Part shown: positions 16,135-20,061 of the stretch, in pieces
How the letters are laid out: each line of letters begins with the position of its first letter
How positions within the stretch are numbered: position 1 is the first letter of the stretch
Assembly: GCF_000745775.1 (NCBI RefSeq)
Contig: NZ_KN050752.1
Span: forward strand, 62,001-126,000
Reading direction: 5' to 3'
Length of the DNA: 64,000 bases
DNA from: Flavobacterium sp. ASV13
Lineage (GTDB): Bacteria; Bacteroidota; Bacteroidia; Flavobacteriales; Flavobacteriaceae
Notes under the pieces: model-generated
The model's input: the letters and a program-made list of their open reading frames with translations, nothing else
Told to the model about the DNA's origin: nothing
Database searches by the model: none
Made by a program: the position numbers and the translations under genes

Positions 16135-17739
16135 CTATAAATTCTCGAAGAAATCATTTCCTTTATCATCAGTAATGATAAAAGCAGGGAAATCTTTCAC
16201 GGTAATTTTACGAACCGCTTCCATTCCTAATTCTTCAAAATCAACAACTTCAACTTTCAAAATATTGTCTTGGGCCAAAATAGCAGCTGGACCTCCAATA
16301 GAACCAAGGTAGAACCCTCCGTATTTGTTGCAGGCATCCGTAACTTGTTTCGTACGATTTCCTTTAGCCAGCATTACCATACTTCCGCCATTTTTCTGGA
16401 ATTCGTCCACATAAACATCCATACGTCCAGCTGTTGTTGGGCCAAAACTTCCTGAAGCCATTCCTTCCGGAGTTTTTGCTGGTCCAGCGTAATAAACTGG
16501 GTGATTTTTGAAATATTCCGGCATTGGTTTTCCGGCATCTAGTAATTCTTTAATCTTTGCGTGTGCAATATCTCTTGCAACGATAACAGTTCCGTTTAAT
16601 TTTAAACGGGTTTTGATAGGGTATTGAGATAATTTTGCTAAAATATCTGCCATTGGCTGATCTAAATCAACTTCAACCGGAGCTTCTAAATGTGGCGCTG
16701 TTTCCGGTAAAAATTGTTTCGGATTTACTTCTAATTGCTCAACGAAGATTCCGTCTTTTGTAATTTTCCCTTTAATGTTTCTATCTGCAGAACAAGAAAC
16801 TCCTAATCCAACCGGACAAGAAGCCGCGTGACGAGGTAAACGGATTACACGAACATCATGCGTGAAATATTTTCCACCAAACTGAGCGCCAATTTCACTT
16901 TCCTGGCAGATTTTCTGAACACGTTCTTCCCATTCTAAATCACGAAATGCCTGACCAGCCATGTTTCCTGAAGTTGGTAAATGATCATAATATCCTGCAG
17001 ATGCTTTTTTAACGGCACTTAGGTTCGCTTCCGCAGAAGTTCCACCAATAACTAAAGCCAAGTGATAAGGAGGACAAGCCGAAGTTCCTAAATCTTTGAT
17101 TTTTGCACGAATAAATGCATCTAAAGATTTATCATTCAATAATGATTTTGTTTGCTGATATAAATAAGTCTTATTTGCAGATCCTCCACCTTTTGCCATA
17201 AACAAGAACTCGTAAGAAGCTCCTTTTTTAGCATAAATATCAATTTGAGCCGGAAGATTTGAACCTGAATTCTTTTCTTCAAACATCGAAATCGGAACGA
17301 TTTGAGAATAACGTAAGTTACGCTTTTGGTACGTATTGAAAATTCCTTTGCTTAACCATTCAGCATCATCAACACCAGTGAAAATACTTTCACCTTTTTT
17401 GGCCATTACAATTGCTGTTCCAGTATCCTGACAGCTTGGTAATTGACCTTCGGCAGCAACAGAAGCATTTTGAAGCAAATTGTAAGCAACAAAACGATCG
17501 TTGTCAGTAGCTTCAGGATCGTCAAGAATGTTTCTTAATTTTTGTAAATGTGTCGTTCTAAGCATGAACGAAACATCTGTCAAGGCTTCTTCAGCCAATA
17601 ATTCTAAACCTTTTGGATCTACTGTTAAAACCTCACGTTCTCCAAATTTTTCAACTTTTACAAAATCAGAGGTGATTTTGCGGTATTGTGTCTCATCCTT
17701 TAAAATTGGATAAGGATCTTGGTATATAAAATCAATCAT
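16135..17739 (-). CDS. Class I fumarate hydratase ([4Fe-4S])
   Basis: TCA-cycle enzyme converting fumarate to malate. The sequence covers both FumA-type domains. The likely cluster ligands are C103 ([10 protein letters not shown]), C222 (TSACPPYH) and C308 ([10 protein letters not shown]). The C-terminal beta domain contains [15 protein letters not shown]. Length 534 agrees with Escherichia coli FumA/FumB. It is transcribed alone, with a -7 motif 15 bp upstream. Oxygen-sensitive class I fumarase is common in Flavobacterium. Confidence 0.95.
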
Positions 17740-17838: not shown

Positions 17839-17942
17839 AAACTGGACTGAAGTCCAGCTCTACAATATGGGCCGAGCCGCTGGCTCTTTTTAAAGTTCCG
17901 GAGGAACGATTTATTTTGTAGGGCTGGACTTCAGTCCAGTTT
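17839..17942. repeat. REP/BIME-like 104-bp multi-hairpin element, copy 1
   Basis: Ends are a perfect 20-bp inverted repeat (AAACTGGACTGAAGTCCAGC and its complement). Each end is itself a hairpin CTGGACT-nn-AGTCCAG. Inside are GAGCC-GCT-GGCTC and GTTCC-GGA-GGAAC, plus TACAA/TTGTA pairing. It ends 8 bp after the transposase stop codon and is in the same orientation as copy 2. Confidence 0.92.
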
Positions 17943-17950
17943 TGCTTAAG

Positions 17951-18412
17951 TTATATTAAATTTTCAAAAACGCATCTTTCGTCAAATTTGACATTATAAT
18001 TATTTAAAAAGGAGGAATATTCATCCCTGAAATTTTGTTTTTTGTGATGTTTTTCTTGATTTGAAATATATTTATAAACGGCATCAATATGAGATTTGCT
18101 ATATGAAAAAACACCATAACCTTCTTGCCATTCAAATTTGCATTTAGTCAATTGATGATCATTGATAAATTTTGATGATTTGCCTTTTACAATTTTCATT
18201 AAATCTGAAATTGAAACAGTTGGTTTAAGTGCTAAAAGACAGTGAACATGATCTTCGGTGCCGTTTACAATAATTGTTTTACAACCTGTTTCATTGATCA
18301 AATTTCCAATTACACTTAAGATTTTAGATTTGCATTCAGGAGTAATTAAAGCTTCTCGGTATTTGACTGCAAAAACGGCTTGGATATAAACTTGATGAAA
18401 GGTGTTTGACAT
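17951..18412 (-). CDS. REP-associated tyrosine transposase (RAYT, IS200/Y1 HUH family)
   Basis: Single-strand-specific HUH endonuclease related to IS200/IS605 TnpA and to TnpA-REP, which cuts palindromic REP sequences. The HUH motif is H55-V-H57 in GTEDHVHCLL. The catalytic tyrosine is Y113 or Y115 in AVYKYISNQEKHH. The protein is intact at 153 residues, with no frameshift. It sits between two direct copies of a 104-bp palindromic element (17839-17942 and 18500-18603), the classic RAYT-REP arrangement. It lacks the inverted ends and target duplication of a normal IS. Confidence 0.92.
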   Translation of the reverse strand: MSNTFHQVYIQAVFAVKYREALITPECKSKILSVIGNLINETGCKTIIVNGTEDHVHCLLALKPTVSISDLMKIVKGKSSKFINDHQLTKCKFEWQEGYGVFSYSKSHIDAVYKYISNQEKHHKKQNFRDEYSSFLNNYNVKFDERCVFENLI

Positions 18413-18499
18413 TTTGTAATAAACTTAAAAGATTGAATTTTAATCTCAAAATTACAAAATAATCTTACAAAAAGATGCAATTAAATCATTTATATGGTT

Positions 18500-18603
18500 A
18501 AACTGGACTGAAGTCCAGCTCTACAATATAGTTCGAGCTGCTGGCTCTTTATAAAGTTCCGGAGGAACGATTTATCTTGTAGGGCTGGACTTCAGTCCAG
18601 TTT
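18500..18603. repeat. REP/BIME-like 104-bp multi-hairpin element, copy 2
   Basis: Same length, ends and orientation as copy 1. It differs at only a few internal bases, for example GAGCT with GGCTC, where a G-U pair would keep the second hairpin. It lies upstream of the transposase start (18412) and just after the stop codon of the SpmA/B-like gene. Confidence 0.92.
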
Positions 18604-18621
18604 AATGTATATGTTAATTTT

Positions 18622-20061
18622 TTAAAAAAACCAAGTCGCCACAAAAATAGCCGTAATCACACAAATCAAATCAACCAAAAGCATCGTGCCCAAAGCGTAG
18701 CGCGTATTTTTGATATTCACAGAACCAAAATAAACCGCAATTACATAAAACGTACTTTCAGCACTACATTGGAAAATACTGCTTAATCTTGCCGTTAAAG
18801 AATCGGCACCAAAAGTATTCATTGAATCAATTAAAAATCCTCTTGATCCTGCAGAACTAAACGGACGTAGCATCGCAACTGGCAACGCATTTGTGATTTC
18901 CTGGCTTACACCTAAATTTGAAAATACAAATCCAATTCCGTCACTGATGATTTCGAATAATCCGCTGTTTCTGAATAATGAAATTGCAACCAACATTCCC
19001 AAAACATAAGGGAAAATAGTAACTCCGGTTTTAACTCCGTTGTTTGCTCCAACAACAAAAGTGTCGAAAACAGTAGTGTCAGCTTCTTTGAATTTTTTCT
19101 CGTGCGTGAAAGAGAAAATCAAAGTAAAAAGAACAATTGTAAGTAAAATTAAACCTGAAAGGTTAGAAGTAAAGTAGTTTTTTCCGATTAAATCCAAATG
19201 ATTCACATACATCAGTAAACCTACAATTGCAGCAATCATAGTAATTAAGCCGATTACAAGTGAAGCACTTTTAAAATTGATTTTTTGTTTAATTCCAACA
19301 ATTAGGAAAGCTGCAATTGTACCAATAAACGAAGTAATAACGCATGGAAGAATTACATCGGCTGGATTTGTTGCGTTTGCAGCAGCGCGATAACCAATAA
19401 TTGAAGTCGCAATCAAAGTCAAACCAGAAGCATGCAGACACATAAACATGATTTGTGCATCGCTGGCTTTATCTTTTTCGGGATTTATTTCCTGTAAACT
19501 TTCCATTGCTTTTAATCCAAATGGTGTTGCGGCCGAATCTAATCCGAGGAAATTGGCAGCAAAGTTTAAAGTCATATAAGAAATCGACGGGTGATTTTTA
19601 GGAATAGTTGGAAACACTTTTACAAAAACTGGACTTAAAGTTTTAGCTAATTTTCCTGATGCTCCAGAAATAATTAAAAGTTCCATTAATCCGCAGAAAA
19701 AGGCTAAATAGGCAATAAGGGGAAGAATTAAATCAACCAAAGTGCTTTTGCAAGTCGGCAATAAACCGTCAGATTTTTGAAGACCACTGTAAATTTTTAC
19801 CGTTTTATTTTTGTAAACATAAGTCGTGTCGGCATTTAGCGTATCACGATTGATAATCATGGTTTGATCTTTCGCTTTTGAAATGCTGTCTTTGATGAAA
19901 GCAGGAAGTTCTTCGATGTATTTTTCAGAAACTAAAATTGGGTCGTCTTTTTTTCCATTCAAAACAGAATCAATAGTGTAAGTATTGGCAGTGAATAAAC
20001 TGACTACAATAAAGAGAATCGAAGAAATAAAAATCGCTAACCAAAATCTGCTTAATACCAT
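18622..20061 (-). CDS. Nucleoside-recognition (Gate) domain membrane protein, SpmA-SpmB fusion type
   Basis: Integral membrane protein of 479 residues with two Gate-type halves. The first half includes the motif NFLGLDSAATPFGLKAMESL, which matches SpmA. The second half includes RPFSSAGSRGFLIDSMNTFG, which matches SpmB. An N-terminal membrane segment and an extracytoplasmic polar region (about 30-100) precede them. In Bacillus these proteins act in spore core dehydration; here the organism does not sporulate and the substrate is unknown. A single gene with no partner nearby. Confidence 0.88.
   Translation of the reverse strand: MVLSRFWLAIFISSILFIVVSLFTANTYTIDSVLNGKKDDPILVSEKYIEELPAFIKDSISKAKDQTMIINRDTLNADTTYVYKNKTVKIYSGLQKSDGLLPTCKSTLVDLILPLIAYLAFFCGLMELLIISGASGKLAKTLSPVFVKVFPTIPKNHPSISYMTLNFAANFLGLDSAATPFGLKAMESLQEINPEKDKASDAQIMFMCLHASGLTLIATSIIGYRAAANATNPADVILPCVITSFIGTIAAFLIVGIKQKINFKSASLVIGLITMIAAIVGLLMYVNHLDLIGKNYFTSNLSGLILLTIVLFTLIFSFTHEKKFKEADTTVFDTFVVGANNGVKTGVTIFPYVLGMLVAISLFRNSGLFEIISDGIGFVFSNLGVSQEITNALPVAMLRPFSSAGSRGFLIDSMNTFGADSLTARLSSIFQCSAESTFYVIAVYFGSVNIKNTRYALGTMLLVDLICVITAIFVATWFF

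Follow-up and report, generated by a model that had tools for sequence, protein, structure and literature searches.

REPIN/REP-RAYT systems, also called REPtrons, are the closest described relatives of the locus presented here. In the available parts of three studies, a low-copy Y1 gene lies adjacent to repeats in which GTAG stands beside a palindrome; these repeats form inverted doublets and tandem arrays and are dispersed between genes (PMC3116915, PMC8266576, PMC3733652). As far as the accessible text of one of these works indicates, GTAG guides the choice of the cleavage site in at least one studied TnpAREP system (PMC8266576). The IS200/IS605 insertion sequences (subclass 1.1; IS608 and ISDra2) carry hairpins at both ends and supply the best-matching solved structures. 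A third group, subclass 1.2 of the Y1 transposases, was described by Quentin et al. in 2018 as close to IS200 yet without the properties of an insertion sequence. In the available portion of that paper, typical IS200 end structures are generally absent from the subclass, and the table gives "no" for REPs (PMC6006769).

The locus from Flavobacterium sp. ASV13 lies in a window of 64,000 nucleotides, the whole stretch of DNA analyzed. We consider it likely to be a REPtron: a single-copy subclass 1.2 Y1 gene that much of the genus retains at one site, flanked by its cognate non-autonomous REPIN-like heterodimer. It differs from REP-RAYT systems in that each half of the element bears a second hairpin across the GTAG, in that these halves differ from each other (GAGCC vs. 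GTTCC) and in that the protein stands on the IS200 side (class 1) instead of among the class 2 TnpAREP enzymes. In contrast to IS200/IS605, the gene stays when the ends move, the ends being many and the gene one: mobility of a multicopy gene with its ends is not seen, since as a rule there is one close copy and both neighbors are retained in 27 of 35 loci. With subclass 1.2 the locus shares the motifs DH[IV]H, WQ and Y---Q--HH, a length of about 150 amino acids, low copy number and occurrence in Bacteroidetes, as given in the accessible part of the 2018 paper; contrary to the "no" for REPs in its table, repeats are found here beside the genes (PMC6006769). The locus represents a REP/RAYT-type variant tied to an orphan transposase subclass, and the larger claim on subclass 1.2 and the Acido-Lenti-1 family is testable. 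Among the papers listed from the openly licensed literature, none treats REPs or RAYTs in Flavobacterium, which is weak evidence of absence.

Element and transposase gene in the window

The features of the locus are collected in Table 1. Two near-identical copies of an element, each of exactly 104 bp, lie on the same strand with 94% identity, as originally predicted, and both show the perfect 20-bp inverted ends and the inner hairpins GAGCC/GGCTC and GTTCC/GGAAC. Copy 1 lies 8 nt past the stop codon of the transposase gene, copy 2 87 nt upstream of its start codon. Read from the center outwards, each half-unit consists of the inner hairpin (GAGCC/GGCTC or GTTCC/GGAAC), about 10 nt, GTAG, 2 nt and the outer hairpin CTGGAC/GTCCAG. 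The arrangement of GTAG, 2 nt and outer hairpin is present in both halves of both window copies, and a GTAG at or near the foot of a palindrome characterizes REPs. This tag had been overlooked in the original prediction, which set the element apart from the REP pairs of other bacteria; that contrast is wrong, since the 104-bp element is an inverted pair of GTAG-tagged REPs in its own right. The element is thus a REPIN-like inverted heterodimer.

Table 1. Features of the transposase locus, in window positions
Feature	Position	Strand	Remarks
Neighbor gene	16135..17739	-	presumably fumarase-like; conservation tested
Element copy 1	17839..17942	+	two inverted REP-like half-units, GAGCC first and GTTCC second
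Copy 1, left outer hairpin	17842..17857	n/a	CTGGAC-TGAA-GTCCAG
Copy 1, left GTAG tag	17860..17863	-	CTAC on + strand
Copy 1, inner hairpin	17874..17886	n/a	GAGCC-GCT-GGCTC
Copy 1, inner hairpin	17895..17907	n/a	GTTCC-GGA-GGAAC
RF01687 match, copy 1	17894-17939	-	full-length, sub-threshold
Copy 1, right GTAG tag	17918..17921	+	
Copy 1, right outer hairpin	17924..17939	n/a	CTGGAC-TTCA-GTCCAG
Y1 HUH transposase gene	17951..18412	-	153 aa; subclass 1.2 motifs DHVH, WQ, YISNQEKHH
Element copy 2	18500..18603	+	same orientation as copy 1, 94% identical
Copy 2, inner hairpin	18535..18547	n/a	GAGCT-GCT-GGCTC; C-G pair changed to T.G
Copy 2, inner hairpin	18556..18568	n/a	GTTCC-GGA-GGAAC
RF01687 match, copy 2	18555-18600	-	full-length, sub-threshold
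Copy 2, right GTAG tag	18579..18582	+	
Neighbor gene	18622..20061	-	presumably transporter-like; conservation tested

A chance origin of this structure is excluded, because the 17-mer of the outer palindrome, with up to 3 mismatches, has 8 matches in the window (four palindromes read on both strands) against 0.05 expected, and because the copies reach folding z-scores of -9.8 to -11.1. The best single-strand fold is one stem of 26-27 bp topped by the two inner hairpins (-32.3 to -33.5 kcal/mol). The four hairpins of the module first described do exist; together they form a weaker alternative fold of about half the energy (-16.5 to -17.2 kcal/mol), and the long stem is the preferred form. A dual fold, long stem or clover, is likewise discussed for REPINs in the available part of the literature (PMC3116915). 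The single change in the inner hairpin of copy 2 keeps pairing through T.G on the + strand, as had been claimed, and leaves a mismatch on the - strand.

The transposase gene is an intact open reading frame whose product matches the Pfam family Y1_Tnp with 97.8 bits, in agreement with its first description as a Y1 HUH transposase. The further designation as a RAYT does not hold in the strict sense. The protein scores 78.2 bits with the NCBIfam model for IS200/IS605 transposases (transpos_IS200), above the cut-off of 55, and 24.2 bits with REP_Tyr_transpos, below the cut-off of 80; it lacks the class 2 RAYT/TnpAREP motif Y---NP and shows YISNQ (Y---Q--HH) instead. Tyr115 and Gln119 are invariant among 16 aligned sequences, and the tyrosine motif YISNQEKHH corresponds to the Y---Q--HH of subclass 1.2. 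DHVH, WQ and the length of 153 residues likewise agree with DH[IV]H, WQ and about 148 residues for that subclass, and copy number is low, the gene being single at E<=1e-50 in 66 of 69 positive genomes, with more distant paralogues besides. By motifs, length and copy number, the protein thus appears to fit subclass 1.2. Among solved structures, the best matches are the IS608 transposase in first place and 2xm3, an IS200/IS605-type enzyme that we take to be ISDra2.

The own genome contains six Y1_Tnp matches, five of them besides the window gene. One paralogue (L023, contig C4, about 573842-574300) is subclass-1.2-like and 48% identical to the window protein; its repeat is of a sister type, hairpin-linker-GGTAG, with two copies beside the gene and one elsewhere. 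Four further, weaker matches are found at L025-L028.

By analogy with IS200/IS605 and TnpAREP, the element would be recognized as single-stranded DNA at its folded ends. The enzyme would bind the outer hairpins together with GTAG, which may act as a guide beside the outer hairpin, and the tyrosine would cut and join the strand near the ends, so that the 104-bp unit is moved or copied in trans. Copies between genes would be tolerated, and hairpins at mRNA 3' ends may arise as a side effect. From this analogy we infer that the transposase mobilizes the element.

Distribution of element and gene in the genome and the genus

The element is dispersed well beyond the window locus, as predicted, with 18 non-overlapping places in the own genome (16 after merging of neighbors within 200 bp). 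Ten copies are full length at 79% identity or more, one divergent copy is full length at 71% (C2:386991) and the rest are partial. Each of the ten joins a GAGCC half to a GTTCC-type half; in the divergent copy both halves are of the GTTCC type, so that not every copy is a heterodimer. The context of 17 places was scored with our own ORF caller; none lies inside an ORF, and the ten inverted doublets are accordingly dispersed between genes as in REPs and REPINs. Sixteen places have flanking ORFs on both sides (6 convergent, 10 tandem and 0 divergent), and one has an ORF on one side only. In the ten copies used for pair counts, which were picked by BLAST alone, 17-22 of 22 stem pairs are formed in nine; the count of 12 in L007 reflects a shift in register, by which its outer counts are meaningless. 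The counting script takes the best available inner hairpin and is therefore lenient, for the relative G053 discussed below as well. A set of 32 units used for covariation shows 99.3% pairing and eight pairs with changes on both sides, counts that are not independent evidence because the script that picked the units demanded hairpins. A recurring terminator-like hairpin with AACCCGACAG or a close variant adjoins five full copies (L004, L006, L008, L009 and L010).

A protein search of 398 genomes of the genus identifies 69 positive genomes at E<=1e-50, with one copy each except for three genomes with two. The half-unit covariance model R1 matches 148 of the 398 genomes at a threshold of 1e-4; about 15 candidates were scored per genome, so unit counts saturate. 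Half-units are present in 63 of 64 genomes with a close orthologue vs. 85 of 334 others, and at least five units in 60 of 64 vs. 34 of 334; a Fisher test on this co-occurrence overstates independence, the genomes being related. The set of 64 leaves out five weak proteins of 51% identity (G124, G165, G197, G272 and G365), whose genomes contain one unit each in two cases and none in three; with these included, the figure is 65 of 69. Stops interrupt the gene in at least two of the 64 genomes, G279 and G289. The predicted tie between copy number and the transposase is therefore strong without being absolute, and neither outcome named as speaking against it, an element confined to one locus or a copy number unrelated to the gene, was obtained.

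All 35 close orthologue loci examined contain at least one unit within 1.5 kb of the gene, as expected of a cognate Y1 gene; the listing includes two artefact rows in L104 and is controlled by the separate comparison of near and far hairpins given below. The transporter neighbor of the window is found beside the gene in 31 of the 35 loci, both neighbors in 27 and neither in 4. With the neighbors retained in most loci, the gene is mostly kept in place and the elements are dispersed; the four loci with neither neighbor indicate that the gene is not always at the window site. In L101 and L104 the transposase gene is flipped relative to both neighbors, compared with the window.

The 34 genomes that are rich in units (at least five) and carry no close orthologue comprise two with broken copies (G121, in two frames, and G066, truncated), eight with no match to the protein and 24 with more distant matches, some of them weak. 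The home site was located in 27 of 28 genomes queried, and 23 of the 27 gene-poor home sites are without a unit. Three of these 23 (G183, G394 and G153) show clean gaps of 88-93 bp. Both the unit-rich genomes without a close orthologue and the unit-free home sites count against the REPtron reading. A C-terminal gene fragment is left in G323, units without the gene are present in G296 and G375, a broken gene with units in G121 and one unit in G312. Remnants of this kind would follow from loss of the gene between its direct repeats, and they are signs, not proof, that in some genomes the gene may have been lost with elements left behind.

In the closest relative found, G053, with about 95% DNA identity over the neighboring transporter gene, the home site holds an unrelated stretch instead of the transposase gene and elements (L294 1089-1503). 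All three element loci of G053 examined (L034, L044 and L055) occupy sites that also exist as element sites in the own genome. Three own full-length sites could be placed in G053: the element is absent at L003 and L004 and present at L005, where the shared copy forms 18 of 22 stem pairs vs. 22 of 22 in the own genome. For one element in one genome pair, this difference has the direction predicted by the idea that hairpins stay intact only in the presence of the enzyme.

Occupied and empty sites between relatives, which the original prediction had proposed to seek, were both found. The sample covers 8 of 10 own full-length sites in 12 relatives, with 72 of 96 site-by-genome regions fetched among the matches listed; all 12 relatives carry the gene, which favors element-rich genomes. 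R1 units are present in 41 of the 72 orthologous regions and absent in 31, 2 of which are not scorable. By site, occupancy is 5/12 (L003), 11/12 (L004), 3/8 (L005), 6/12 (L006), 9/12 (L007), 1/3 (L008), 1/1 (L009) and 5/12 (L010). Clean excision was not seen in any occupied/empty pair: junctions are blurred by divergence, and one G053 site misses more than the element. Exact target sequences are unreadable because the species differ by roughly 5-25% at the flanks.

At both sites aligned for orientation, L003 and L006, the element takes opposite orientations in different species between the same flanks, and in G015 the L003 site is reduced to a single outer palindrome. The elements therefore appear, from these alignments, to invert in place. 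The 20-bp ends could give rise to such inversion through recombination or through slippage during replication, and the enzyme need not take part in it. The loci showing opposite orientation at the L006 and L003 sites are L173, L174, L140 and L144. Tandem arrays of element-containing units occur at L111, L145 and L190, with periods of about 262, 136 and 289 bp, the first beside a transposase gene and the other two away from it.

A bias relative to replication was considered and is not relied on. In complete genomes (G103, G358 and others), 62 of 92 elements among the matches listed are co-directional with replication, as are 26 of 38 long matches and, in G103 alone, 18 of 21 among the matches listed. 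The bias is weak, sites are shared and thus pseudoreplicated, and elements flip in place; dnaA was taken as the origin, the terminus was assumed to lie opposite, most genome lengths were rounded and gene direction was uncontrolled.

Sister loci and alternative explanations

A survey of 80 named loci from Bacteroidota and Ignavibacteria, 42 with closer and 38 with more distant (sister) genes, shows the same association of gene and hairpin. Hairpin density within 400 nt of the gene, compared with 1-2 kb away, is 8.99 vs. 1.01 per kb at the closer loci and 7.75 vs. 0.81 per kb at the sister loci, a difference that may in part be one of intergenic vs. coding DNA, the far stretches being mostly coding. 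The excess of GTAG 7-12 nt after a hairpin, near vs. far, is not explained in this way (55 vs. 3 at closer and 78 vs. 2 at sister loci). Among tetramers after hairpins, GTAG ranks first in the 38 sister loci and third in the 42 closer loci, behind the overlapping TTGT and TGTA; it follows a hairpin in 24 of 38 sister and 23 of 42 closer loci. The layout hairpin-linker-GTAG is found in 50 of the 80 loci, GTAG-hairpin in 25 and both in 21.

The protein tree comprises 76 proteins, 5 of 81 having been left out for stops or frameshifts. Its rows are labeled as double-hairpin (22), single-hairpin (29) or unlabeled (25); many of the unlabeled rows show the same layout with GTAA or similar replacing GTAG, and L245 and L273 are without any hairpin. 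Double and single architecture change four times on the tree, against a mean of 16.7 and a least value of 10 in 200 shuffles, and all 22 double-hairpin rows sit in one group of 43 rows (SH-aLRT 99), along with 7 single-labeled rows. Repeat architecture thus follows the protein tree. The common core is therefore hairpin plus GTAG, with the outer hairpin belonging to one part of the tree, and the position of the tag differs: after one hairpin in the sister clades, between two hairpins here.

These data bear on the possibility that another Y1 enzyme spread the elements, the flanked gene being a passive host of copies. Candidates are at hand in the six Y1_Tnp matches of the own genome and in the more distant, partly weak protein matches of 24 of the 34 unit-rich genomes without a close orthologue. 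The explanation is nevertheless unlikely, as the 48% identical paralogue has its own, different repeat, two copies of it beside that gene and one elsewhere, and as the double-hairpin rows fall into a single group of the protein tree, 22 of 22, even with the 7 single rows that share it.

Alternatively, the elements could be retained as structures at transcript 3' ends or as other RNA structures and be spread by recombination, with the link to the transposase as a by-product. Their positions would suit such a role, with 0 of 17 places in ORFs and 6 convergent, 10 tandem and 0 divergent settings among the 16 two-sided ones, as would the very stable single-strand fold and the terminator-like hairpins adjoining five full copies. 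This reading is made quite unlikely by the strong co-occurrence with the gene, by the clustering around it in sister clades, by the agreement of repeat architecture with the protein tree and by the existence of sites without the element. That the gene and its two copies form a composite or IS200-like insertion sequence, with the dispersed copies as solo ends, is very unlikely: the protein does score as IS200 and direct copies do bracket the gene, but it is single in 66 of 69 positive genomes (E<=1e-50) and, of 35 loci, has both neighbors in 27 and neither in 4, there are many dispersed elements, and each 104-bp copy is a complete unit with both inverted halves.

Acido-Lenti-1 and a possible wider reach of the REPtron reading

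The REPtron reading, if extended to the sister loci, touches a catalogued RNA family. Acido-Lenti-1 was predicted as an RNA in 2010 by Weinberg, according to the accessible part of that work (PMC2864571), and is annotated in Acidobacteria and Lentisphaerae. A 2026 paper, in its available portion, places it beside protease genes in Tannerella and calls its function little known (PMC13298647). With all 46 of its positions, the Rfam model RF01687 aligns in reverse complement to the GTTCC half of each window copy; the scores, 20.4 and 20.1 bits, fall short of the gathering score of 37. The layout of the family is that of the half-unit in reverse complement: an outer hairpin with a 4-nt loop, CUA, a short linker and a 5-bp inner hairpin. 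In 15 hand-chosen sister loci, selected after GTGCC-type inner hairpins had been noticed in some, 10 of the 15 rows at E<=0.5 belong to this family, in 7 of 15 loci, at 23.6-30.6 bits; as a control, 60 kb of one Flavobacterium genome, which does not represent the same organisms, give none of this family among 6 rows. No match at the gathering level was found for RF01687 in 20 sister loci, nor for any Rfam family in 17 loci searched. All Rfam matches on the element were sub-threshold; most were to miRNA models fitting any long hairpin, and these were set aside. Flavo-1 RNA was likewise rejected as the element, since it occurs once, in the sister locus L244, at a distance of about 1.8 kb from the gene.

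As a lead from these sub-threshold matches, the Acido-Lenti-1 family may be a DNA repeat of the half-unit kind. For at least one bacterial RNA family catalogued without a known function, this offers an alternative that can be checked. Tentatively, and with a chance that we put somewhat short of even, subclass 1.2 would be a second, independently domesticated lineage of REP enzymes from the IS200 side. Its partner would be a phylum-wide hairpin-linker-GTAG superfamily with a second hairpin in one branch, and Acido-Lenti-1 would belong to this DNA superfamily instead of being primarily a noncoding RNA. The data suggest that a subclass described as REP-less does have a DNA partner. A likely partner is thereby named for a subclass said in 2018 to have neither the properties of insertion sequences nor REPs, and the role of its genes becomes testable with a defined substrate. 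The locus also offers a natural comparison for the passage from a mobile-element enzyme to a host gene present once and surrounded by many small dependent elements.

The same outer hairpin, CAACGGATTTTAATCCGTTG, is found beside the gene in L226, L232, L234 and L235, from Arcicella, Mucilaginibacter, Sediminibacterium and another member of the Chitinophagaceae. This shared hairpin suggests either transfer of the module or strong constraint. The gene also occurs, with a nearly identical outer hairpin, in scattered genera from other classes, which suggests that transfers have occurred as well.
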